The notes under the pieces are model-generated. The model had not been told where the DNA came from. It made no database searches and saw only the letters and a list, made by a program, of their open reading frames with translations. The translations under genes were made by a program, and so were the position numbers. Of a stretch of 64,000 bases of DNA, positions 19,770 through 64,000 are shown one piece after another (position 1 is the stretch's first letter; the number at the start of each line of letters is the position of its first letter). The DNA lies in NCBI GenBank assembly GCA_902774915.1, contig CACYKH010000002.1:62001-126000 (forward strand), in the 5' to 3' direction. This stretch comes from an uncultured Lachnospiraceae bacterium (lineage in GTDB: Bacteria; Bacillota; Clostridia; Lachnospirales; Lachnospiraceae).

Positions 19770-20045
19770 AAAACCGCGCGACCAGCTTTGTAAAGCCCCA
19801 ACGAGCGTACCTTAAGCAGTTAACTCAACCCAGGTAGCCTCACGGCGCACAGAGAGGTTCTACTTAGTGCTGCTTTGTTCCCAACCTGACACGGTTCGCA
19901 GATTCCTGTCGCGTAAGACCTAGATTTCAACGTCACTTACCAAGAACAGCCTCGCAAGAATCAGTCCGAGACTGGTCATCACCCCTGCTATAGCGGATTG
20001 CAGGTACAGGGCACCGCTATCTCCCCGGCTGCGCGGAAGTTTTAT
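19770..20045 (-). ncRNA. ffs: Signal recognition particle RNA, large Bacillus/Clostridium type
   Basis: About 270 nt on the minus strand. The 5' end carries the Alu-domain signature (GCCGGGGAGATAGCGGTGCC, then CCTGTACCTGCAATCCGCTA). The middle carries the SRP54-binding helix 8: CAGGT, a TTG-GGAA-CAA tetraloop hairpin and AAGCAGCAC. The termini pair (CCGCGC near 20035 with GCGCGG near 19775) and are followed by a T run. An S-domain plus Alu-domain length is typical of Firmicutes. It follows tadA, as in many Firmicutes, but dnaX is not next to it. The RNA directs Ffh to signal-anchor proteins. Confidence 0.96.
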
Positions 20046-39060: not shown

Positions 39061-39421
39061 ATACTTGTCCACTTCGTACGTCAAAAAGCATCCAGCTTGT
39101 GGACTTCTAAAAATCACGCACGTTCTACATTCCTCTGTTCCGCAGTCGCCTGCAGTTTTTAAAAATGTAGATCACGAATGTGCCATCCGAAGGAGCATCC
39201 GCCGAATTTTAGCGAATAAGAAGGCACCGCTGCCTGCTTAAACGTTTCGATAACTCCTTACCTCGTCGAGTGCCGGATTACGATAACCCGCGAGCACAGT
39301 GTACGCAGCCTGCCCGTCAAGGCACCAGAGTGCCTTTACGGCACTGCTGCTTACTACGGAAAATTGCAAAAGCAATTTTCCTACTGTGCTCGATTACTGC
39401 GTAATCGAGCACTATGGCGCT
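39061..39421 (-). ncRNA. glmS ribozyme-riboswitch with enlarged P1 arm
   Basis: On the minus strand, upstream of glmS. Cleavage is expected between A39421 and G39420 (TTA|GCGCC). Core segments match the family: GACGAGG followed by GGAGTTATCGAA at 39267-39246, and TTCGGCGGATGCTCC at 39206-39192, with an apical P2 hairpin between them. P3 (CTACATT/AATGTAG) and P4 (GTCCAC/GTGGAC, right arm 39067-39072) follow. Glucosamine 6-phosphate binding makes the RNA cut itself and the glmS message decays. The P1 arm between GCGCC and GACGAGG is about 145 nt (39269-39413) instead of a short hairpin, with nested hairpins at 39386-39412, 39358-39381 and 39329-39345. Confidence 0.88.
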
Positions 39422-52231: not shown

Positions 52232-55213
52232 CTATCCAAGTCCCTTAGGATTATTTACTTTATTATTAACTATATTGCCATTTTTATTATTTGCATTCTT
52301 TTGTTGGGCCTGTCTCTCGTATTCAGCTCTCTGTCTGTCAAATTCCTCTGCTCTTTTCTGTTCTCTCTGTTTAATCAATATCGGAGCTTTATGAATACTA
52401 TCTGCACACTTCTTAATATTCCTCAGAAGATCCTGCTCTGGAGAATCGGGATCAAGTCCCTTACTAAACTTTTTCACCGTTTCGTTTAATTCGTCCAACC
52501 CTTCTTTTGTACGAAGCTTTCTACCAACTTCATATATAGGTTTGGACGCCTTAAAGATAAGCACATCATCCATAGTTGATAAATCATCCACGTCTAGTTC
52601 AAGCTCATCTAAATGCATCAATTTATAGTTATAATTCTCTGGATTACGAAATTCCTTAATTTTATCATTATTTTCAATATCTTGTGCTCTAAGTTGATCA
52701 CGCCTGGTGCTTAGATATTCGTATTTAATTATTTTATTTATACAATCCTGTTTTTCCTTTTTTGAAAGTGATACACCTTCATAAGCCGCTTTTTGAAGCT
52801 TATGTTCAGCATCGTAGCAATCGTCCAAAAAGCCCTTAAAACGTAGTGTGTCCTGGATAGCCAGCTTTTCAGTCTTAGTGAATTTTGCGTCCACCATTTG
52901 CTTTAGATCAGGATCTTTATCGGCAATTTTAATCATTTTCTCAAGCATCGAAGCAGAATACGCAAAGTTGGATCCTTCATTTCTGGAAGTATAAGTTGCC
53001 ACTTCACATTCAAAAGCTGTTTCCTTAATTCCTACTGCCAGTACATCGGCAAGCAACTTCTTATCGCCTTTATTATATGCTTCAATAGCACTCTTGGCTT
53101 TTTCTTTTGCAGGAACCAAAGTCCAAGGGAAGAAATGTTCGACCATATTAGCTCTCGGTTCTCCATTTTGTCTACCTAAATCAAGAGTGTACATTGTCCT
53201 TCCATGATGAAGTAAGTCTTCTTTAGTAATTTCCTTGCTCTTAACTTTCCATCTGTTCTTTATACCTTCAAGTTCAATATTTTCAGGATTCAAAACTGCC
53301 GCATATGCTATTGCCGCAAATTCTTCATTTGTAACGCCTTTAACATCAACTGGTTTAAGAATTTCCTTAAACTCTTCTTTGGTGTACATTTTTTTATTGC
53401 CATCTGTAGAACAGTGATCAGTAATAAACATTGGATTACTTCCATAATAATTGATTATACAGTTTAAGCCTCTCTCGTATGGTCTCCTGGTCATCAACTC
53501 CAAATTATCCATATCTGTGACTGTAAACCCATCTTTTCTCATGGTATCTGCGATTTCCGGTAATTCTTTTCTACTATTTTTATGTTTTGTGTATGCATCT
53601 TCCATACCCTTAGCGAGATTTACTATATCCATAGCAGAATTGAAACGAGTCCTTCCCATTTTCGTAGAAGGTTTCCAGGCAGCTAATGCATTGTCCGCAT
53701 TTTCTTTTAAAGTTTCTTCGTATTTTCTAAGTTCCCTTCTCAGTTCGACTGGTAAATTCCCTTCAAATTCAGGATCAAGTTTATATTTTTCATAAAGTTC
53801 AGCTTTCTTTTTCGCTAATAATTCTTCACGTTTTGCGTCGATTTTTTGTTTTGCTTCTTCTTGTTTTGCTGCTATATAAGCATTTCCAAGTCTAACAACA
53901 TCTTTGCACAATTGTTCAAACTTTGGATCATCATATATGCTTTTATTCCTTTTCTTACCCAGTTGAATTACAAGTTCAAGGACTTTTTTCTTAAATACAT
54001 CCATTTCATCAGTATCTGTATGTTTTATCAGGCTTCCTCTATGCTGAGCCTCAAGTCCCTTATAAAAATTATTTAAAGAATTAATAAAAAATGTACGGTC
54101 ATTTTCAACCGGATTCAGATGTATAATCTCTACACTCTCATTTCTGATTGTGGTCTCTAATATCTTAGTCTGAGCCTTCTTCTCATCAGGATGTCTCTCT
54201 TCATAGGTCTTATACATATATCTGAGATTATTGATAACACGCCTTCTATCGATATGTCTATCAATAGGTTCATTAAGAAAAGCGTTGAATTCCCCTTTAT
54301 ATCTCTCCTTTAATGCTTTGTCGATAGTAGCATCTTTCTCAATGGTGTTATAAACCTTAATGACACTATTTATAAAAGGAAGATCCTCAGCGCTCCATCC
54401 ATTATCCAGAAGCTTTATTTTTCTATCGCAGTCTTCAATAATAATATCAGCGTGCCTTACTCCGCTCCAATTATCCCTGAGACCAATCTCACTCTTATCA
54501 AAAGGCGATATTAATTTAGCCTCACCTTCGTATTTTATTTTCTGTAATTTTTCCTGATTTTCTTTCTGTTTTACAAAATAATCACGGGTAGCCTTTTTAA
54601 ATTGTTTTTGTTTTAGCTCATCAACTTTTCCTGCTTCCTTATCCTTATAGTAAGGAATTTGATGATTGATAACATATTCTTCAGTAATATAGTACTGTTC
54701 CAGAAAACCTTTATCTTTCATAAAGTTTTCATAACGATTTCCATCAAACTCACGTTGACCATTACCCTTATTAAAATATGGAAGAGGAAAATTCAAAAAA
54801 GTATCATTGGATATAGAAAGAAATGGTTCTTCTATTCCTTTATCCTTGAGATACTGGCAAGTACCATCTAATCTAAACTTTATGTGATTAAGAAGCGCAT
54901 TAATTGCTTTCTTTCTGCTCGAATCCTCAGGTGCATCTATCAAATTAGCCTTGCTAACCATCAGATTGTATAAGTTCACCATATTTTTATCAACGTCCGC
55001 ATATTCTTCCTCAGTAAGCTCGTTGCCATAGCTTTTTGGATCCGTAAAATAAGCGTAAAAGTTTGCGATGGCATTTTCTATATCTTTACCTTCATCGCCA
55101 AAAAGATCTGTCGCGCCTGAAGCCGCCCCAATAAAACCAGCGAGTTCGCCCTTAGTCATTGGTCTCATAACTTTTAATGTATTATTATTCTCGTTATCTA
55201 TAAATTCTTTCAT
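52232..55213 (-). CDS. Giant cytoplasmic-looking protein, unknown (family member A)
   Basis: 993 residues, GGAGG site 7 bases before ATG. No signal peptide, lipobox or TM helix. Starts MKEFIDNENNN, like the MKDFILEND start of the 1397-residue protein. Mostly helical with charged coiled-coil stretches (about 446-505 with KQEEAKQKIDAKREEL, and 948-975). Residues about 253-280 (ADIIIEDCDRKIKLLDNGW, SAEDLPF) align with about 930-955 of the 1397-residue protein (GDIVIKNINRQLHYMDLGW, PLEDTAF). C-terminus is Asn-rich. I do not recognise a known family. It is driven by a direct-repeat promoter at 55278-55312. It might be a structural, secreted-without-signal or defence-type protein; none of that can be shown here. 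Confidence 0.8.
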   Translation of the reverse strand: MKEFIDNENNNTLKVMRPMTKGELAGFIGAASGATDLFGDEGKDIENAIANFYAYFTDPKSYGNELTEEEYADVDKNMVNLYNLMVSKANLIDAPEDSSRKKAINALLNHIKFRLDGTCQYLKDKGIEEPFLSISNDTFLNFPLPYFNKGNGQREFDGNRYENFMKDKGFLEQYYITEEYVINHQIPYYKDKEAGKVDELKQKQFKKATRDYFVKQKENQEKLQKIKYEGEAKLISPFDKSEIGLRDNWSGVRHADIIIEDCDRKIKLLDNGWSAEDLPFINSVIKVYNTIEKDATIDKALKERYKGEFNAFLNEPIDRHIDRRRVINNLRYMYKTYEERHPDEKKAQTKILETTIRNESVEIIHLNPVENDRTFFINSLNNFYKGLEAQHRGSLIKHTDTDEMDVFKKKVLELVIQLGKKRNKSIYDDPKFEQLCKDVVRLGNAYIAAKQEEAKQKIDAKREELLAKKKAELYEKYKLDPEFEGNLPVELRRELRKYEETLKENADNALAAWKPSTKMGRTRFNSAMDIVNLAKGMEDAYTKHKNSRKELPEIADTMRKDGFTVTDMDNLELMTRRPYERGLNCIINYYGSNPMFITDHCSTDGNKKMYTKEEFKEILKPVDVKGVTNEEFAAIAYAAVLNPENIELEGIKNRWKVKSKEITKEDLLHHGRTMYTLDLGRQNGEPRANMVEHFFPWTLVPAKEKAKSAIEAYNKGDKKLLADVLAVGIKETAFECEVATYTSRNEGSNFAYSASMLEKMIKIADKDPDLKQMVDAKFTKTEKLAIQDTLRFKGFLDDCYDAEHKLQKAAYEGVSLSKKEKQDCINKIIKYEYLSTRRDQLRAQDIENNDKIKEFRNPENYNYKLMHLDELELDVDDLSTMDDVLIFKASKPIYEVGRKLRTKEGLDELNETVKKFSKGLDPDSPEQDLLRNIKKCADSIHKAPILIKQREQKRAEEFDRQRAEYERQAQQKNANNKNGNIVNNKVNNPKGLG

Positions 55214-55277: not shown

Positions 55278-55312
55278 ATTTTAGCATAAAATGAGCAACA
55301 AATGAGCAACAA
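55278..55312 (-). promoter_or_regulatory. Direct-repeat promoter of the 993-residue protein gene
   Basis: On the minus strand two perfect copies of TTGTTGCTCAT in tandem (55291-55312), 7 bases, then TAAAAT as -10. The pair covers about -41 to -20, replacing a -35 box, as PhoB/OmpR-type activator sites do. Confidence 0.75.
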
Positions 55313-55343
55313 AAAAATAGAACCGAAAACACTTAACAAATCG

Positions 55344-55372
55344 TTGTGTTTTAGCTTTATCTATAATATAAT
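55344..55372 (+). promoter_or_regulatory. Cellobiose phosphorylase promoter
   Basis: TTGTGT, 17 bases, TATAAT. A TGGCGGT/ACCGCCA hairpin (55384-55402) lies at the very start of the predicted message, which could stabilise it. Confidence 0.75.
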
Positions 55373-55447
55373 TATTGTATCTGTGGCGGTATGAAACCGC
55401 CAATATTACACTATCAAGAAAAATAAACGAAAGGGAAGGTATAACTT

Positions 55448-57898
55448 ATGAAATTTGGTTACTTCGATGATGCTGCCAGAGAGTATGTCATCACATCCCC
55501 AAGAACTCCTTATCCATGGATCAACTACCTTGGAACAGAAGGGTTCTTCTCACTTATCTCAAACACAGCAGGAGGATATCACTTCTACAAAGATGCACGT
55601 CTCAGACGTATCACACGTTATCGTTATAACAATATTCCTGTAGATATGGGCGGTCGTTATTTCTATATAAATGATGATGATACAGTTTGGAATCCAGGTT
55701 GGTCACCAGTTAAGACTAATCTTGATTTCTATGAGTGCCGTCATGGTATGGGCTATACAATTATCACTGGTAAGAAGAAAGAGCTGAAGGCTGAGGTTAC
55801 TTTCTTCGTACCTCAGGGTGAAAATGCCGAGATTCAGAAGGTTGTTCTGAAGAACGAAGGCACATCTCCAAAGAACTTCACACTTTTCTCATTCCTTGAG
55901 TGGTGTCTGTGGAACGCTGAGGATGACTCAACAAACTTCCAGAGAAACTTCAATACAGGTGAGGTTGAGGTTGAAGGTTCAACACTCTTCCATAAGACAG
56001 AGTACAAAGAGCGTCGTGATCACTTCGCATTCTATACAGTTAATGCTGATATCGATGGTTATGATTGTGATAAAGAAAGCTTCATGGGACTGTACAATGG
56101 TTTTGACAGACCTGATGCAGTTTTCGCAAATGCATCTAACAACTCTAAAGCTGATGGATGGGGACCTATCGCATCTCATTCACTTAAGATTTCTCTTGCA
56201 CCTGGTGAAGAGAAGGTTCTCGTATTCATGCTCGGATACGTTGAGAACGGAGCTGATAAGTGGAATGCAGATGGCAGCATGAATAAGTCTAAGGCTTATG
56301 AAATGATCGCTAAGTTTGATACAGCTGAGAAGGTTGACGCAGCTTTCGAAGAAAATCGTAAGATGTGGGATGACCTCCTTTCAAAATATGCAGTTAAAAC
56401 TCCAGATGAGAAGGTTGACCGTATGGTTAACATCTGGAACCAGTATCAGTGTATGGTTACATTCAATATGTCAAGAAGTGCTTCTTACTTTGAGTCAGGT
56501 ATCGGACGTGGAATGGGATTCCGTGATTCTAACCAGGATCTTCTCGGATTCGTTCATCAGATTCCAGATAGAGCTCGTGAAAGAATTCTTGATCTTGCTG
56601 CTACACAGTTTGAAGATGGTGGATGCTTCCATCAGTATCAGCCACTTACAAAGAAGGGTAATGATACTCTTGGCGGAAACTTCTCTGATGATCCAATGTG
56701 GATGATCATGTCAACAGCAGCATACATCAAGGAGACTGGAGATTACTCAATCCTCGATGAGATGGTTCCATATAGAAACGATGAGTCACTGGCTCAGCCA
56801 ATGATGCATCACCTGAAGCAGTCCTTCTATAAGGTTGCTAAGGAAACAGGTCCTCACGGACTTCCACTTTCAATGAGAGCTGACTGGAACGACTGTCTGA
56901 ACCTTTCATGCTGGTCAGATACACCAGGAGAAAGCTTCCAGACATATACATCACCTAAGTATGGTGATAAGGGCTTCTCAGATGTTGCCGAGTCTATATT
57001 TGTTGCAACACTCTTCACTTATGCAGGTCCTGATTATGTAGCACTTTGCAAGTACAAGGGCGATGAGGCTGAGGCTGCTGCAGCTCAGGCTGAGATTGAT
57101 AAGATGAAGGGTATCATCAAAGAGTACGGCTGGGATGGTGATTGGTTCATCAGAGCTTATGATGATCTTGGACGTAAAGTTGGTTCTAAGGAATGTGAAG
57201 AAGGAAAGATCTTCATTGAGCCACAGGGCTTTGGTATCATGTCTGACATCGGTAAAGAAGATGGATGGGCTGAGAAGGTTATCAATGCTGTTGAAGAAAG
57301 ACTTGGTTGCAAGTACGGTCTTGTACTTAACAATCCAGCATTTACCAAGTACTATATTGAGTATGGTGAAATTTCAACATACCCAGCAGGATATAAAGAG
57401 AATGCCGGTGTATTCTGTCATAACAATGCATGGATGATCTGTGCAGCTGCTTATGCAGGACAGGGAGATAAGGCATTTGACTGGTACAGCAGAATTGCTC
57501 CTGCTTTCCTTGAGGATATTTCAGATCTTCATAGAACAGAGCCATATGTTTACGCACAGATGGTTGCTGGTAAAGATGCAGGACGTCAGGGCGAAGCTAA
57601 AAACTCATGGCTTACAGGTACTGCTGCTTGGAACTTCGTAGCAATCAGCCAGTACATCCTTGGTATTACACCTGATTGGGACGGACTTAAGGTTGATCCT
57701 TCAATTCCAGCTGCTTGGGACGGTTTCAGTGCAACTCGTCAGTTCCGCGGAGATACATACGAGATTGAAGTTAAGAATCCTAACCATGTATGCAAGGGTG
57801 TTGTATCACTCACAATTGACGGAAATGCCGTAGACGGAAACGTTATTCCAGTTGCTGGAGACGGTGCTTCTCATAAGGTTGTTGTAACACTCGGTTAA
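55448..57898 (+). CDS. Cellobiose phosphorylase (GH94)
   Basis: 816 residues, the length of characterised cellobiose phosphorylases. Splits cellobiose with phosphate into glucose and glucose 1-phosphate, saving one ATP; cytosolic with no signal peptide. The N-terminus ([38 protein letters not shown]) is close to the Clostridium thermocellum enzyme as I recall it. Catalytic Asp in [12 protein letters not shown]; phosphate/substrate regions [17 protein letters not shown] and [23 protein letters not shown] site before ATG. It sits alone among minus-strand genes and indicates a cellulose/cellodextrin-using lifestyle. Confidence 0.95.
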
Positions 57899-57921
57899 AT
57901 ACCACATAATACAATAATAGC

Positions 57922-57956
57922 AAAAGTCCCTTGGGAATCACTCCCAAGGGACTTTT
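57922..57956. terminator. Terminator after cellobiose phosphorylase
   Basis: Perfect 15-bp stem AAAAGTCCCTTGGGA / TCCCAAGGGACTTTT, 5-nt loop, T6 on the plus side, also T-rich on the minus side for the convergent giant gene. Confidence 0.95.
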
Positions 57957-57985
57957 TTGATTATTTTAAACTATAACAATAAGAA

Positions 57986-60900
57986 TTAATGTAAATTAGG
58001 TACATTGTTTTTAACATTCTTACGGTTCTGTGCAACCTGCTTACGCGCATCAGAAACAAGGCTTTCCTTGTAAACATTAACCTCGTTATCACGTTTCTTC
58101 TTGAGCTCGTTAACTGTTTTGGCTTGTCCGTTTTGAGCTTCATTATAGCTACTTATCAGCTGATCAGCTGAAGTAATTCGAAGTCCCTCATTATCATAAT
58201 TTGGCTCAAGATTTTTAACCAGGTTCTTTAAAACGTCATCCCTGCCCATAATACTCTTAATGTCTAATACTGACAGATCTTCTTTTCCAAGACTTTCAAG
58301 TCTCTCTCTATACCTTTCTTCCGTCTCGTTTTCCTTAGGCTCTAAATTGAAATCATTTTTCTGAGCAGCGAGTGTTAGAATCCTGCTTGCTGCCTTAACA
58401 TAATCATTTTTATTCTTGGCATCTCTAAGATTGATGGTTTCATCTGCGATTTTCTGATCAATTCTTTCAATCGCTCTGGCTTTATCAAGGTCATCAAATG
58501 CACCTAATATGAAATTGAGTTTTTCAAGCTGATTGATTGCCATCTTTATACGTGGCTGTTCATTCCTTTCACGTGAATTTCTTCTATTATCATTATTATG
58601 TAGATCTCTCTGCTTATGTGCCAGATATGCCTTGGTATTTCGAATTGCATCCTTCAGATGCTCTCTAATTTCATTAACTCTTTCTCCATAGACATCGGCA
58701 AATGTATCAATATCGCCATTAGGCTTTTCCGATAATTTTAATCTATCATTCATTGGACCGTTAACAAACGCCTTAAGACGAAGTAGAGCATTTTTCATAT
58801 CAACAAATTCATTTGATCCTTTTCTGAATCGGAATTCTACAGCAGCCATATCTTCAACCATAAGATCAACATTTTCTTTTATCATTTGATTTGTTAATCC
58901 CGGTTTTTTAAGCTCCACACGAACCCTAGGCGCATTTTGTTCTTCACCTAAATAAAAAGGTTCAATTTCAGATGAAACAGTATCTGCAATTCTATGATCA
59001 GCTCCACTCAAATGAGCATCCACAATCTTTCTATTCACCGCATCATCAAAAAGATTCCAAACCCTGCTGGTTGCATTATGATGATTTGCTCCCCAAATCA
59101 GATTATATGCTGAAAGTGGTTCTCTAAGAGATTCCAGTATTTCATCTCTCATTTCTTCAGATGTAACAATTGATTTTTGTATTCTTTCTAACTGTTCCTT
59201 AATTTTCTTATGAGCCAGCTCAGCATTTCGTTTTTGCTCTCGATTCACATTCATTTCGCCTCGAGCCATTCGTCCAAGGTCTGCAACGACATTACCAAGT
59301 TCTAGAAGAAATGCTGTATCCTCCAATGGCCAGCCTAGATCCATATAATGTAACTGTCTGTTAATATTTTTAATTACAATGTCACCATTATTAGCGCCAG
59401 CGTAATTATCCAAATAATTTGTTTTAGGATCATCTGTATATGCATTTATGCTTCTTATATCATTATCTTCTTCAAGCTTTACATTTTTAAGCTTCCTATA
59501 ATCTGCTTTAAGTGAATTAGCAAATTTTATATAGTTAGAAGTAAATTGCTTTATTTCACTACTATCTACATTTTTAGCTCTAATATTCTGTATTATTGCT
59601 TTATTGTCATTATAAAATTTCTGTCTATCGAGAAGATTTTTGATTATCGGAAGTCTTTCCATCATATCATTGTATCTATCATTATCAGCCCTAAAATTTC
59701 CTTCCTGATCTTTAAAAAGATTAGTTGGGAAGTTTTTCATAAGTGCATCATACGAAACTTTATATGTGGTATCTATTCCCAGCATACTTGCCATATCATT
59801 GTTAATCATAAGATTTGCGTGTCCTTCAATAAGGTTGAACAAATCTTGATTCACTTTGAGCACGTCACCTTTTTTAGTATGGGCCTCAAAATATAGTTCC
59901 ATCTTAGTAGAAATTGCTTTTGCCACAGCATACACCCTACGCGCGCTAGCCATCATTTCATCATAACTGGTTTTTAGTTCCTTATAACCTTTCGCCGTAG
60001 TCTCATGTATAGCGTCTATATTTCGAGTCTTCACCTGATTATAAGTTGCTATATATATATCCAAAGAGGCTCCACTAGCTGCGAATTCAGGTATATTTTT
60101 AGCGAGTTTGGCTATCCCATTAATATATTCTTCAACAATAGAGAGATTTAATTCTTCCCCAAAATCACCTATTTCGTCTCTATAATAAATCTCAAGATCA
60201 CGAAGGTTAACTTCGCTTATATCTACTTTAGGATTTAGCCCCTCCTGATACCTTCTCTCTGCTTTAATTCTTGCCTCTTCTCTCAGCTGTTCTTCTACTT
60301 CTTTTCTGTTTCTTTCCTCTTCTAGTCTTTTTAGCCTTTCTCTTTCTTCTCTTTCTGCTTTTTCTTTCTCCGCTTGAATCTTTCTTTGTTCCTCAAGCTC
60401 TTCCTGCTCAAATTTCTCCTCTTCTTCTGGATCATCTATTATCTCTTCAATCGTAATATCAAGAGCAGACTCATGTTTAATCGGATACATTAATCTCATC
60501 TCCGAAGCCTTTACACGCTTATAACGAGGAGCATTTGCTCTATTAGTATAGGCAATCTTTTCCTGTGCTTCTGCAGAATTTGCAAGAATAATCTTCTGTG
60601 TCTCTATACAGTAGCGTTCATCATTTTCAGCTGACTGCTTTACAGCGCCGTCCTCTCCCATAGTATAAATATTAGGAACAAACTTCAGCTGAACATTCTG
60701 ATGTCCAATTGAATAGAGATAAAATGCTTTCGCATACTGACTAAATTTATCAGGCGAAATCTCATCCTTCTTAATTCCATTTTTATCTAATACTTTTTCA
60801 ACAACCTCAAGAACACTCTTACCCTTAAGCTGACCCGCTTCTTCAGGTGAGAGCTCTTTAATATTAGAATTTACAAACTGAGTATTCTTTAATACAGATT

Positions 60901-62179
60901 CATCTACTTGGTTTCTATTATAAAATGCTTCAACGCCAATAAAAATGCGATCGAATGCCTGCTCAGCATCACGTAAATCCTTATCACTAAGCTTTTTTGC
61001 ATCAAAAGAATCATTAGCTGTCTTTTTGAATGCGCCAGTCATAAATACTTCGTCTAAAGGATTATTCTTAGCCATATTGACTGCGTCTAAAAGTGCCTTA
61101 TTATAAACCTCTACCTGATTAGCTGATTTTACAATAGGTGGTCTACCGGCATTTTTCTGCACCTCAACATATTCAAGCCAGATTTTTCTATCTTCTAATT
61201 CAAGACTTTCTCTATCCGCAATTTTCTTGATTTTTTTATCATTAAAATCTTTTTCAAATTCCTTTTTAAAATCATCACGATACTTTTGAATTAATTTTGT
61301 TTTTTTGTACTTACGGGAATCTTTAACAAATTTAGGTATAGCATCTTTGGCTTTTTCATATTCCTCTGCATATCTTTTCGCAATTTTCTCAGATTCCTTA
61401 GGATTAAAATTATCTTCCTTAAGGATTTTAAACACCTCAACAGCAGCGTTATAAGCTGCTACATTATTCTGATGTTTTGATAATAATTCGTTATAATCAT
61501 AAACCTGTTTTAGCTTTGCTTTATATTCTTTATCAATTTTCTCTTGCTGTTCTTTTGAATATTTTTTCTTTGTATCTTTTGGAACATTATAATTAGCCTT
61601 ACCAGATTTTGCGTCAAAAGTAATCCCCTTTGGCAATTTTCGTTTAAGCGTATTAAGATTTTTCTCTTCCACCTTAATTTGGTCACTAAGTTTTAAATCA
61701 TCTTTATATGTCACATACATATTATAATTTCTAACGTGGCGATCAATTGCTTTTTTATCAGGATGAATATCAAGAAGTAAAGAATCTAGTTGCGCCTCCT
61801 TACTTTTAATGGTTTCTCTTTCATATTCTTCAAGTTGATCCTTAAGCCACCTCTGATCAACACCTATATTTTCATCCTTTGGCAAAACCACTTTTTCTGA
61901 CTCATCAAACTCCTGAAGTTTGTCCCAGTCTTTATAATTAACACCCGTGCCAATTATATTATGTATTTTCTTAGCTTCCGGCTGTTCTTCTGTTTTTTTC
62001 TTCTTTGGCTTAGCATCCAGCTTCACCTCTGGCTTAATTTCCTGTTCTACATCTAGCTCTTCCTCTGGATTAGCCTCCTCTTCTTTAAAAAGATCAGTAT
62101 TATTTTGCTGTTCTTCTGAATGAGCATCATTTTGCTTATCTTCTGACTGAATATCATTTTCTAAAATAAAATCCTTCAT
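57986..62179 (-). CDS. Giant cytoplasmic-looking protein, unknown (family member B)
   Basis: 1397 residues from ATG 62179 with AAGGAGG before it. No signal peptide or TM. Starts MKDFILEND, like family member A, then a Glu/Lys-rich disordered region to about 110. A long charged helix lies at about 583-648 (EEERNRKEVEEQLREEARI). The shared module with member A is at about 930-955. The last ~90 residues (DIKSIMGRDDVLKNLVKN, then VYKESLVSDARKQVAQNRKN) match the C-terminus of the gene cut at the right edge. Highly AT-rich coding sequence. Function unknown. Promoter with tandem 11-bp repeats at 62236-62270. Confidence 0.82.
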   Translation of the reverse strand: MKDFILENDIQSEDKQNDAHSEEQQNNTDLFKEEEANPEEELDVEQEIKPEVKLDAKPKKKKTEEQPEAKKIHNIIGTGVNYKDWDKLQEFDESEKVVLPKDENIGVDQRWLKDQLEEYERETIKSKEAQLDSLLLDIHPDKKAIDRHVRNYNMYVTYKDDLKLSDQIKVEEKNLNTLKRKLPKGITFDAKSGKANYNVPKDTKKKYSKEQQEKIDKEYKAKLKQVYDYNELLSKHQNNVAAYNAAVEVFKILKEDNFNPKESEKIAKRYAEEYEKAKDAIPKFVKDSRKYKKTKLIQKYRDDFKKEFEKDFNDKKIKKIADRESLELEDRKIWLEYVEVQKNAGRPPIVKSANQVEVYNKALLDAVNMAKNNPLDEVFMTGAFKKTANDSFDAKKLSDKDLRDAEQAFDRIFIGVEAFYNRNQVDESVLKNTQFVNSNIKELSPEEAGQLKGKSVLEVVEKVLDKNGIKKDEISPDKFSQYAKAFYLYSIGHQNVQLKFVPNIYTMGEDGAVKQSAENDERYCIETQKIILANSAEAQEKIAYTNRANAPRYKRVKASEMRLMYPIKHESALDITIEEIIDDPEEEEKFEQEELEEQRKIQAEKEKAEREERERLKRLEEERNRKEVEEQLREEARIKAERRYQEGLNPKVDISEVNLRDLEIYYRDEIGDFGEELNLSIVEEYINGIAKLAKNIPEFAASGASLDIYIATYNQVKTRNIDAIHETTAKGYKELKTSYDEMMASARRVYAVAKAISTKMELYFEAHTKKGDVLKVNQDLFNLIEGHANLMINNDMASMLGIDTTYKVSYDALMKNFPTNLFKDQEGNFRADNDRYNDMMERLPIIKNLLDRQKFYNDNKAIIQNIRAKNVDSSEIKQFTSNYIKFANSLKADYRKLKNVKLEEDNDIRSINAYTDDPKTNYLDNYAGANNGDIVIKNINRQLHYMDLGWPLEDTAFLLELGNVVADLGRMARGEMNVNREQKRNAELAHKKIKEQLERIQKSIVTSEEMRDEILESLREPLSAYNLIWGANHHNATSRVWNLFDDAVNRKIVDAHLSGADHRIADTVSSEIEPFYLGEEQNAPRVRVELKKPGLTNQMIKENVDLMVEDMAAVEFRFRKGSNEFVDMKNALLRLKAFVNGPMNDRLKLSEKPNGDIDTFADVYGERVNEIREHLKDAIRNTKAYLAHKQRDLHNNDNRRNSRERNEQPRIKMAINQLEKLNFILGAFDDLDKARAIERIDQKIADETINLRDAKNKNDYVKAASRILTLAAQKNDFNLEPKENETEERYRERLESLGKEDLSVLDIKSIMGRDDVLKNLVKNLEPNYDNEGLRITSADQLISSYNEAQNGQAKTVNELKKKRDNEVNVYKESLVSDARKQVAQNRKNVKNNVPNLH

Positions 62180-62235
62180 TCGAAAATCCTCCTTAAAAAA
62201 CTCATAAATGGGCATAACACCCCTATCTGAATATA

Positions 62236-62270
62236 ATAATAACACGTAAAGCGCAACATAAGCGCAACAC
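62236..62270 (-). promoter_or_regulatory. Direct-repeat promoter of the 1397-residue protein gene
   Basis: Minus strand GTGTTGCGCTT and ATGTTGCGCTT in tandem (10 of 11 identical), 7 bases, then TATTAT. An extreme A/T-rich run (62271-62325) lies just upstream, possibly an UP element. Confidence 0.75.
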
Positions 62271-62324
62271 TTTTTTTATTTTTTAAACAATAAAAAAAAT
62301 TTTAAACGCAAGATTGTAAAAAAA

Positions 62325-62357
62325 ATAAGCCAATGGTAACTCGTACCATTGACTTAT
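62325..62357 (-). terminator. Terminator after the 348-residue lipoprotein gene
   Basis: ATAAG-c-CAATGGTA / TACCATTG-a-CTTAT stem with one internal mismatch, followed by T8 on the minus strand. Confidence 0.85.
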
Positions 62358-62395
62358 CCTTTATATAATATACCTCTCTCCAAGCAGAAATAGGA

Positions 62396-63442
62396 TTATT
62401 CTGTCTCGCTCTTCATATCCATTGCCACGCTCTCATCAAGCGCCTTAGCAAAGTGTGATTTACCATCCTGATCTACAATGATACCTGTTGTATCAATATT
62501 TCCATTCTCATCCTCATCAAAATGATAGCCGTAAGTCTTACCCTCTACAGTAATCTTAATATACTCTGTACCATCATCCAGCTTTGCATCCTCTGTAGTA
62601 TACTCACCATAATAGATGTTTTCGCCTTCCTGAATGATTACAATAGGAATACCTGCTGACTTGAAAAGTGCAATATTTGCATCACATTCTTCATCTGATG
62701 CATAAAGACCACCCATATAAACTACATCATCATCTGCAGGATCACTTACACCAAGGTTAAGATCTACAGCATCCCAACCATAATCCTGATACTTTGTAGC
62801 TGGCACACTATGAGATGTTACATACTCAACAAGGAACTCTTCTCTCTTCTCTGTTCTAAGTTCATCATTGCTAAAAATCTCTGTGAATGCATCATAGTTA
62901 TCACCAAAGATTTCCTTTGCACTCTCATCAAAATCCGAGCCATCCGCTACAACATCAAAACTCTCTACAACATATCCCTTACCAGCATCTGTTTCCTTAA
63001 CGTGCATGCATCCTGGATATGAACCACCAGCCTGACACTCAAGAGTATTGCCTTCAAGTGTATAAGTCTCATACCAGTAGCTTCCCCAAACCTTAATGTC
63101 CTCTGGATCAGAATCATCTCTACTAACTTCAATAATTGTTGGAATTCCAACATCGCCTGTTTCGTATCCCTTTGCAAGTTCATCACAAATATAATCACAG
63201 ATTGCGGATACTACCATATCATCCCCTGTATATGTATACTCGCCATAAGCCCACTCGGCATCTGAACTAGATGCATCAGCCTCTGTGGCTTCTGTTGCCT
63301 CCTCAGTTTCTTCCTCTGTAGTTTCCGTAACGGCTTCCGTTGTTACCTCAGCCTCTGTTGTAGTTTCTTCTTTTGCTCCACATCCTGCCATAAGTGACAG
63401 ACCAAAAACCATTGTAAGTGCAACTGCAAGTTTCTTTTTCAT
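62396..63442 (-). CDS. Lipoprotein with Thr/Glu-rich stalk, unknown
   Basis: 348 residues from MKKKLAVAL, with AGAGGAAAAGAAG before ATG 63442; upstream in-frame codons contain the promoter. Signal peptide with lipobox LMAGC, Cys20 lipidated. Next, about 45 residues of Thr/Glu/Ala repeats (TTEAEVTTEAVTE, EEATEATEADA) form a stalk. The outside domain has four or more Cys/Trp/Tyr-rich strands (CDYICDELAKGYE, VWGSYWYETYTLEG, KTYGYHFDEDENGNID). Unrecognised. It shares the direct-repeat promoter of the giant genes, which suggests a joint function. Confidence 0.8.
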   Translation of the reverse strand: MKKKLAVALTMVFGLSLMAGCGAKEETTTEAEVTTEAVTETTEEETEEATEATEADASSSDAEWAYGEYTYTGDDMVVSAICDYICDELAKGYETGDVGIPTIIEVSRDDSDPEDIKVWGSYWYETYTLEGNTLECQAGGSYPGCMHVKETDAGKGYVVESFDVVADGSDFDESAKEIFGDNYDAFTEIFSNDELRTEKREEFLVEYVTSHSVPATKYQDYGWDAVDLNLGVSDPADDDVVYMGGLYASDEECDANIALFKSAGIPIVIIQEGENIYYGEYTTEDAKLDDGTEYIKITVEGKTYGYHFDEDENGNIDTTGIIVDQDGKSHFAKALDESVAMDMKSETE

Positions 63443-63493
63443 TCTTCTTTTCCTCTTTTCGCTTTTTCTTATTACTTCTTTACTACAAATGGA

Positions 63494-63528
63494 AGTATAC
63501 ACCCAAAAGAGCAACAAAAGAGCAACAA
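63494..63528 (-). promoter_or_regulatory. Direct-repeat promoter of the lipoprotein gene
   Basis: Minus strand two perfect copies of TTGTTGCTCTT, 7 bases, then TATACT. It starts right where the upstream terminator stem ends. Confidence 0.8.
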
Positions 63529-63559: not shown

Positions 63560-64000
63560 TTAAAGATGATGTTCCCTAGCGTTCTCTATTTCTGCACGTC
63601 TCGCACGCTTCGTGTTATTTTTCATAGTACGATTACGTTTTTGGACATTTGAAACGAGGTTCTCTTTATAATCCCCGACTTTATCAGCCTTCTTCTGCTT
63701 TTCAGAACGTTCATCAACATGACGAAGGTCATTAGGGTGAAGCTGATTATATTTTAATGCGTATTGATTATATGCCCCCTCAGCATCTAATCTCTTATGA
63801 TTAGGACTCTCTAATGCCGTTTTTTCATTCTGCATTACTTCTCTAAATACAGGATCCTTCTTCATCATATCTTCAACATCTTTTGCTGTTATTTGATTAA
63901 CTCCGGTATTTCTGATTCGAGCAACAAAATCTACGTGCTTTTCGTCCTCTTCCATCTTATAATAACGGTCCTCAGCCTGCATTCCATAAATAATTACTCT
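63560..64000 (-). CDS. C-terminal part of a giant-family protein (5' end outside window)
   Basis: At least 146 residues; the frame stays open to the window end, so the ATG at 63982 is probably internal. The end ITAKDVEDMMKKDPVFREVMQN...GDYKENLVSNVQKRNR matches the C-terminus of the 1397-residue protein (DIKSIMGRDDVLKNLVKN...NVYKESLVSDARKQ). Basic, Arg/Lys/Asn-rich tail. Probably the third member of the local family. Function unknown. Confidence 0.7.
   Translation of the reverse strand, partial: RVIIYGMQAEDRYYKMEEDEKHVDFVARIRNTGVNQITAKDVEDMMKKDPVFREVMQNEKTALESPNHKRLDAEGAYNQYALKYNQLHPNDLRHVDERSEKQKKADKVGDYKENLVSNVQKRNRTMKNNTKRARRAEIENAREHHL

Follow-up and report, generated by a model that had tools for sequence, protein, structure and literature searches.

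Amongst described systems, the closest to the promoter element considered here is the afs box of Streptomyces coelicolor, which is bound by the SARP AfsR through an OmpR-type winged helix. In the parts of PMC10936776 that deal with it, this 22-bp box consists of two 11-bp direct repeats, centred at -29.5 and overlapping a poor -35, and the complex places two protomers on the two repeats, with sigma region 4 resting upon the protomers. Regulators of the OmpR/PhoB type (PhoB, PhoP, VanR and DrrB) combine a receiver with a winged helix, and use direct repeats in place of a -35. A comparable arrangement is found in a 64,000-nucleotide stretch of DNA (hereafter the window) from an uncultured Lachnospiraceae bacterium (GCA_902774915.1, contig CACYKH010000002.1, positions 62,001 to 126,000), in which an earlier note, made from the sequence alone, had described three promoters bearing a tandem 11-bp repeat. 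Herein, this box is followed through the genome and beyond, and it is proposed, as the probable explanation, that it defines a regulon driven by the response regulator RR263 and dedicated to a Gram-positive, effector-delivering type IV secretion system (T4SS).

With regard to secretion, passages of PMC12857230, a 2025 review, and of PMC4897608 link the 89K T4SS of the Gram-positive Streptococcus suis to protein export (SspA-1); in the former, dedicated effector export by Gram-positive T4SSs is treated as a question of long standing, for which S. suis provides the one strong example. The system described below differs in that 19 substrates are predicted in one genome, and in its promoter box, with a candidate regulator that is conserved. 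Many modular effectors, some with eukaryote-like kinase domains, together with C-terminal signals, characterize the Legionella Dot/Icm and Xanthomonas T4SSs, although these are Gram-negative machines of other lineages and are likened to the present one by description, not by sequence.

The tandem box in the window and across the genome

All three boxes placed by the earlier note on the minus strand of the window were recovered there letter for letter. The first, TTGTTGCTCAT in two copies (55291..55312), lies 7 bp 5′ of a TAAAAT -10 element (55278..55283) and forms the promoter of a giant protein, R07. The second, composed of GTGTTGCGCTT and ATGTTGCGCTT (62249..62270), is separated by the same 7 bp from TATTAT (62236..62241) and precedes a further giant protein, R05. 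The third, TTGTTGCTCTT twice (63507..63528), likewise has its -10 element, TATACT (63494..63499), 7 bp 3′ of the box, and serves a lipoprotein, R22; by eye, this box starts within the T-run that follows a hairpin resembling the terminator of the upstream gene.

Searching the genome (2.61 Mb, 98.9% complete) for the 21-bp tandem box, with no -10 demanded, returns 31 hits at up to three mismatches, against one for the reversed pattern. A TANNNT follows at exactly 7 bp in 28 of the 31; the distance is 6 bp in one and 8 bp in another, whilst the element is absent in one (L026), which is probably a chance hit (spacing recounted on 30 of the 31). With the -10 included in a 34-bp pattern, 34 hits are obtained compared with one for the control, and 33 of these were examined in their DNA, a three-mismatch hit at C4:1358 being left out. 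The matrix of 32 sites gives the consensus TGTTGCgCTTT TGTT[GA][CT]nCTTT, then TATAAT, with the upstream repeat the stricter of the two and the TG of an extended -10 at -15/-14 in 22 and 21 of the 32 sites, respectively. Inspection of this consensus reveals no TTGACA-like -35, as the earlier note had held, and the box sequence differs from the known ones of OmpR/PhoB regulators.

A heuristic start finder places a same-strand start 28-221 bp past the -10 at each of the 33 sites, with a Shine-Dalgarno-like match of at least three bases at 32 of the 33 starts picked. As this finder favours long open reading frames (ORFs), a control with random positions was run: a stricter cut, consisting of a Shine-Dalgarno match of at least four bases and an ORF of at least 139 aa, is passed by 29 of the 33 sites but by 19% of 3000 random positions. 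Similarly, 29 of the 33 sites lie mostly outside called ORFs, compared with 8% of random positions. The tandem box is not a product of chance.

The small regulon of three genes that had been envisaged is refuted by these counts, as about 33 promoters carry the box in this genome, that of a T4SS operon amongst them. First genes of at least 600 aa occur at 19 of the 33 promoters, the longest being 3686 aa (two genes run off their stretch), and the median first gene encodes 678 aa, against a median of 330 aa for 168 other genes from this DNA (p=2e-4). Of the 34 sites, eight are located within C2:117-171 kb, which comprises the end of the window and the T4SS cluster region. Further members recognized by eye include secreted proteins, lipoproteins, a GlgC-like enzyme and acetyltransferases. 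Judged from these genes, the over thirty box promoters together seem to switch on the T4SS and around 20 mostly giant, cargo-like proteins.

The type IV secretion operon and its candidate regulator

One site drives an operon that encodes, besides a T4SS pilin and VirD4, a VirB6-like protein and a protein of 345 aa containing two hydrophobic segments; a VirB4 gene adjoins it. The pilin matches T4SS_pilin (1.1e-8) and the Mbov_0395 pilin-like NCBIfam (42 over a cut-off of 40); the VirD4 coupling ATPase matches PF02534 (3.7e-54) and the CD1115 family (291 bits over a cut-off of 250); and VirB4/TraG is recognized by PF19044 (1.5e-18) within a 1466-aa frame. The conjugal-transfer membrane protein, which matches the MMCAP2_0566 NCBIfam (124 over a cut-off of 90), we read as VirB6-like from its six hydrophobic segments. 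Elsewhere in the cluster are a PF07486 cell wall hydrolase, for which a VirB1-like role is putative, SARP-like response regulators, a kinase of the His_kinase family and genes for SpoIIE, STAS and HATPase proteins. In 20 further genomes the genes again run RR263 - p233 - HATPase - site - pilin - VirD4 - p345 - VirB6-like - VirB4 within the reach of each stretch, some with insertions. Amongst these 20 the site is directly 5′ of the pilin gene in 19, and lies between a pilin hit and VirD4 in the other (G009). RR263 is present in 19 of the 20 fetched clusters, the exception (G034) being a contig that begins past it, and in G005 the genes 3′ of the pilin are missing.

Several observations stand beside this cluster. 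Its SpoIIE/STAS/HATPase partner-switching genes are located at C2:136-158 kb (L203, L204), and a STAS gene follows VirB4 in 8 of the 20 relatives' stretches. A second pair, TraG P-loop and VirD4-like, is present in the same genome as the window (G000:C24:8884-14150), perhaps within a separate conjugative element, and in G011 (C3:6186-8121) the cluster VirD4 gene is in two pieces in different frames.

The earlier note had suggested that a response regulator be sought nearby, and a candidate exists, albeit outside the window. None is present amongst the seven window genes scanned, the others lying beyond that scan, whereas RR263 is encoded at C2:171731-172519, about 46 kb past the window end, with a few genes between it and the pilin operon downstream. 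RR263 has a receiver domain (Response_reg, 1e-20), with the phosphoacceptor D53 invariant in 15 aligned sequences. A model of its ortholog from L095 (pLDDT 88.7) adopts the OmpR/PhoB-type response-regulator fold with a winged helix, and has VanR, PhoP and DrrB as its top Foldseek hits, whilst a profile of the winged helix compared with PDB returns AfsR first (E=0.0046), followed by SaeR (0.0059) and EmbR (0.036); this link to SARPs appears weak but consistent. After the winged helix there remain only about 35 residues, a short C-terminal extension, so that RR263, having no recognizable BTA domain, is said to work like a SARP and not to be one. Accordingly, the PhoB/OmpR-type activator replacing a -35 that had been suggested for these promoters holds with respect to geometry, given the AfsR-like layout and the fold of the RR263 ortholog model, but the regulator is SARP-like and not a classical PhoB, its winged helix going unrecognized by Pfam Trans_reg_C. 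It departs from AfsR in possessing an N-terminal receiver, and a short C-terminal stretch instead of a full BTA domain. The last repeat is 7 bp from the -10 here, compared with 8 bp for AfsR in the available part of PMC10936776. Moreover, the host is a rumen bacterium titled Lachnospiraceae or Eubacterium, in which a secretion system takes the place of antibiotic genes as the target.

At two mismatches or fewer, the box is present in 24 of 37 genomes of the genus, whilst of 24 genomes from other families it is present in 1. An RR263 ortholog (at least 69% identity) occurs in 30 of 61 genus genomes, and the 28 with a VirD4 ortholog all fall inside those 30. Sites per genome have a median of 11.5 with RR263 (30 genomes) against 1 without (31 genomes; p=6e-11), and for genomes at least 90% complete the corresponding comparison, 18 against 15, gives p=2e-6, these statistics ignoring shared descent; the reversed pattern gave 2 hits in all 61 genomes.

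A scan of 84,980 species produced exact matches to the box in 99 stretches, all of which were inspected and of which 41, with titles naming neither Lachnospiraceae nor Eubacterium, were taken as other taxa. At 14 of these 41 loci (12/37 plus 2/4) an RR263-like gene (at least 100 bits) shares the box stretch within 8 kb, and several stand just before the site, whilst an OmpR-type control, consisting of 18 regulators from the genome under study and one wrongly picked ORF (L064), does so at a single locus of the 41. Classical OmpR-type regulators, of which the genome has 20 PF00486 matches, one of them (L062) near a site, are set aside because they share the stretch with the box at no more than that one locus. 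Also set aside as the regulator are receiver-like proteins of 330-342 aa whose own genes have the box as promoter in L110, L127, L150 and L159, as their second half looks coiled-coil-like by eye, not a winged helix; all four loci have an RR263-like gene immediately ahead of the site. The link between RR263 and the box rests on recurring gene order, co-occurrence in the genus, co-location in other taxa and the AfsR-like geometry, and on these sequence comparisons RR263 is likely to be the activator of the box promoters.

A sister box, TGTTGCACTT in two copies, with A at the seventh position, precedes genes in L092, L093, L122, L124, L125 and similar loci. Its carriers are metagenome-assembled genomes (MAGs) of other Clostridia, Acholeplasmatales and Bacillales, and several of the genes have secretion-type N-termini by eye. 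Lying partly near RR263-like genes, this sister box possibly belongs to a wider family of SARP-like regulons. Separately, in one Oscillospiraceae MAG (SUG1362), sites L181:7460, L181:7930 and L091:3832 drive short proteins that begin with a GG-like leader (MKDELKQNELN...GG) and look by eye like precursors of the bacteriocin type.

Giant proteins as candidate substrates

Nineteen soluble first-gene products, chosen by eye as candidate substrates, range from 203 to 3686 aa, with 17 of at least 568 aa and two incomplete at the C-terminus. A Kyte-Doolittle scan finds a hydrophobic segment in none of them, and 10 of the 19 have a stretch in common with another candidate. Of 791 ORFs in the fetched DNA, 13 carry the shared module A, 10 carry module B and 16 carry module C. 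Over their final 30 residues, the 17 complete candidates are basic, with a median net charge of +3 against -1, and have a hydrophobic fraction of 0.20 against 0.37; these tails are rich in N/P/Q/G/K, and many finish with motifs of the kind GPHM, APGLM or NPKGLG. A rule drawn from these tails selects 13 of 22 soluble regulon proteins and 4 of 100 others in the genome under study, and, amongst relatives (drawn from 80 of the 99 loci), which form a partial hold-out only, 9 of 15 compared with 9 of 83 others, four of the latter nine being module-B proteins.

Within the genus, modules B and C follow VirD4: module B is present in 24 of 28 VirD4-positive genomes against 3 of 33 VirD4-negative ones, and module C in 25 of 28 against 5 of 33, with seeds taken mostly from VirD4-positive genomes. 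G005, a single contig that keeps RR263, the pilin and five sites, and has no VirD4 match, contains neither module. Pfam matches above cut-off are confined to three of the 17 candidates scanned (all except R01 and R02), namely a calpain-type protease (R08), an ABC1 kinase-like protein (R03) and a PI3/PI4 kinase (R06). Ten site-driven proteins of relatives include an ADP-ribosylglycohydrolase in L139 and L100, and a PI3/PI4 kinase below cut-off in L108.

Two of the candidates are encoded in the window, both on the minus strand. R07 (993 aa, 52232..55213) carries modules A and B, is devoid of hydrophobic segments in the simple hydropathy scan, and ends in a tail (...NNKVNNPKGLG) that is disordered in the structure model. 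Its C-terminal half is modelled as all-helical (pLDDT 78) with no clear match in PDB, which does not amount to a new fold; a viral origin was considered, and a single scan of viral contigs returned no relative. R05 (57986..62179) harbours module A and the tail ...NNVPNLH; a longer ORF of 1419 aa would begin within the promoter, and the ATG with a Shine-Dalgarno sequence gives 1397 aa. The lipoprotein R22 (348 aa, 62396..63442, minus strand), assigned by an eye-read lipobox, has a relative in L131 (59%) that is likewise site-driven. Also on the minus strand, 63560..63982 encodes the C-terminus of another module-A protein, whose bulk lies beyond the window; judged by coordinates, it is in frame with a 1147-aa open ORF (L202:1-3441). 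Elsewhere in the window, a GH94 gene (55448-57898) is divergent from that of R07, and Rfam, at its gathering threshold, recognizes two RNAs, neither at a box site: a glmS ribozyme (39115-39362) and a bacterial large signal recognition particle RNA (19774-20036).

Competing explanations and significance

In the proposed mechanism, the tandem 11-bp repeat would be the binding site of RR263, a SARP-like response regulator with receiver, winged helix and short C-terminal extension. Two copies would bind head to tail across about -41 to -20, substituting for the missing -35, and the bound regulator would let sigma-A RNA polymerase use the TGnTATAAT -10. The regulon would comprise the T4SS operon, some 19 soluble, mostly giant, basic-tailed proteins, and a number of secreted proteins, lipoproteins and enzymes. 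The giant proteins would most likely be substrates, with VirD4 recognizing their tails and exporting them, probably into neighbouring cells. The box, its geometry, the downstream genes, synteny, co-occurrence, and the shared modules and tails are directly found by computation, and from them we infer binding and activation by RR263, secretion, and the target of the giant proteins.

A number of points weigh against this explanation. For RR263, Pfam lists neither BTAD nor Trans_reg_C at E<=10 and, as several SARP-like paralogs stand beside it, one of these could be the binder. Ordinary enzymes belong to the regulon as well, a GH3 glycosidase and others recognized by eye. No VirB8 is recognized by Pfam or NCBIfam amongst the operon proteins scanned, and the lack of a relaxase (below) concerns one family in one genome. 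Six of the 33 VirD4-negative genomes have module B or C (G012, G018 weakly, G022, G031, G063 and G064), several of them incomplete or contaminated, whilst G008 has VirD4 and neither module. In G036, 97% complete and with no RR263 or VirD4 ortholog, five sites precede genes that by eye are mixed in kind, and two of the five sites in G005 have no downstream ORF by the start finder. The tail rule was made after the tails of this genome had been seen, shared descent may contribute to the genus statistics, and the OmpR control contains its one misplaced ORF. The split by title is also rough, with L156, counted as another taxon, matching genus genome G073, and L129 titled Pseudobutyrivibrio.

The first of these points leads to a different binder for the same regulon, either another SARP-like regulator of the cluster or an OmpR-type protein encoded elsewhere, RR263 merely travelling alongside. 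RR266, a SARP-like paralog two genes before RR263, does have a detectable Trans_reg_C domain, and the OmpR-type L062 has a site about 1.4 kb away. This is nonetheless unlikely, as RR266 is seen in 8 fetched clusters (stretches may fall short of it) against the 19 of 20 for RR263, which also scores higher in all 13 other-taxa loci where both scored beside the box, and the OmpR-type genes fare as described above. It is similarly improbable that the T4SS is what domestication or decay has left of a conjugation machine, with giant proteins that are unrelated to it, cytosolic or surface-associated, and share only its regulator. The VirD4, pilin and VirB6-like proteins do match the conjugation families of CD1115 and mycoplasma integrative and conjugative elements above cut-off, and enzymes without such tails belong to the regulon. 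Unlike those machines, however, this one has a giant-protein regulon attached and comes from a genome with no match to PF03432, the sole relaxase family searched; modules B and C track VirD4 over the genus, G005 included, and the 19 candidates show no hydrophobic segment in the simple scan and, where complete, have tail properties in common.

Much further from probable is the repeat being the recognition element of an alternative sigma factor, even though SpoIIE, STAS and HATPase partner-switching genes, as in sigma-factor circuits, are located in the cluster. The -10 is of the normal extended sigma-A type, and a tandem repeat of 22 bp with a period of 11 bp corresponds to the arrangement of paired winged helices in the portions of PMC10936776 concerned, not to a -35 hexamer. 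Short AT-rich repeats are common, yet a chance or compositional repeat devoid of regulatory role is ruled out by the counts, namely 31 hits against one reversed, the fixed 7 bp and the non-coding position of the sites. The RR263-driven regulon for an effector-delivering T4SS is thereby retained as the probable explanation.

Beyond this, a more far-reaching possibility can be put forward only tentatively, and is in some doubt: that the Eubacterium ruminantium clade, a Gram-positive lineage of rumen commensals, possesses a T4SS dedicated to the injection of effectors, giant mosaic proteins numbering in the tens (some PI3/4-kinase-like, calpain or ABC1-kinase) and used against rumen protozoa, fungi or rival bacteria, and one SARP-like response regulator presiding over all. 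The literature surveyed, judged at overview level, was not found to describe the box, the regulon or the giant proteins. It contained nothing on Eubacterium ruminantium with type IV secretion, and works on T4SSs in Lachnospiraceae, in Firmicutes in an interbacterial context and in the rumen or ciliates, or on SARPs in Firmicutes and Lachnospiraceae, were without this system; Eubacterium and Lachnospiraceae are not mentioned in the available sections of PMC6079354. SARP-like activation and T4SS export are each known, and are here joined in a new setting, with an effector-delivering T4SS being a type of machine thought rare in such bacteria. For the question of effector export by Gram-positive T4SSs, the regulon offers a machine with a candidate switch, together with candidates for the export signal and for the substrates. 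It would also extend SARP promoter logic to the two-component systems of Firmicutes, with a box that is recognizable in other Clostridia and Bacilli.

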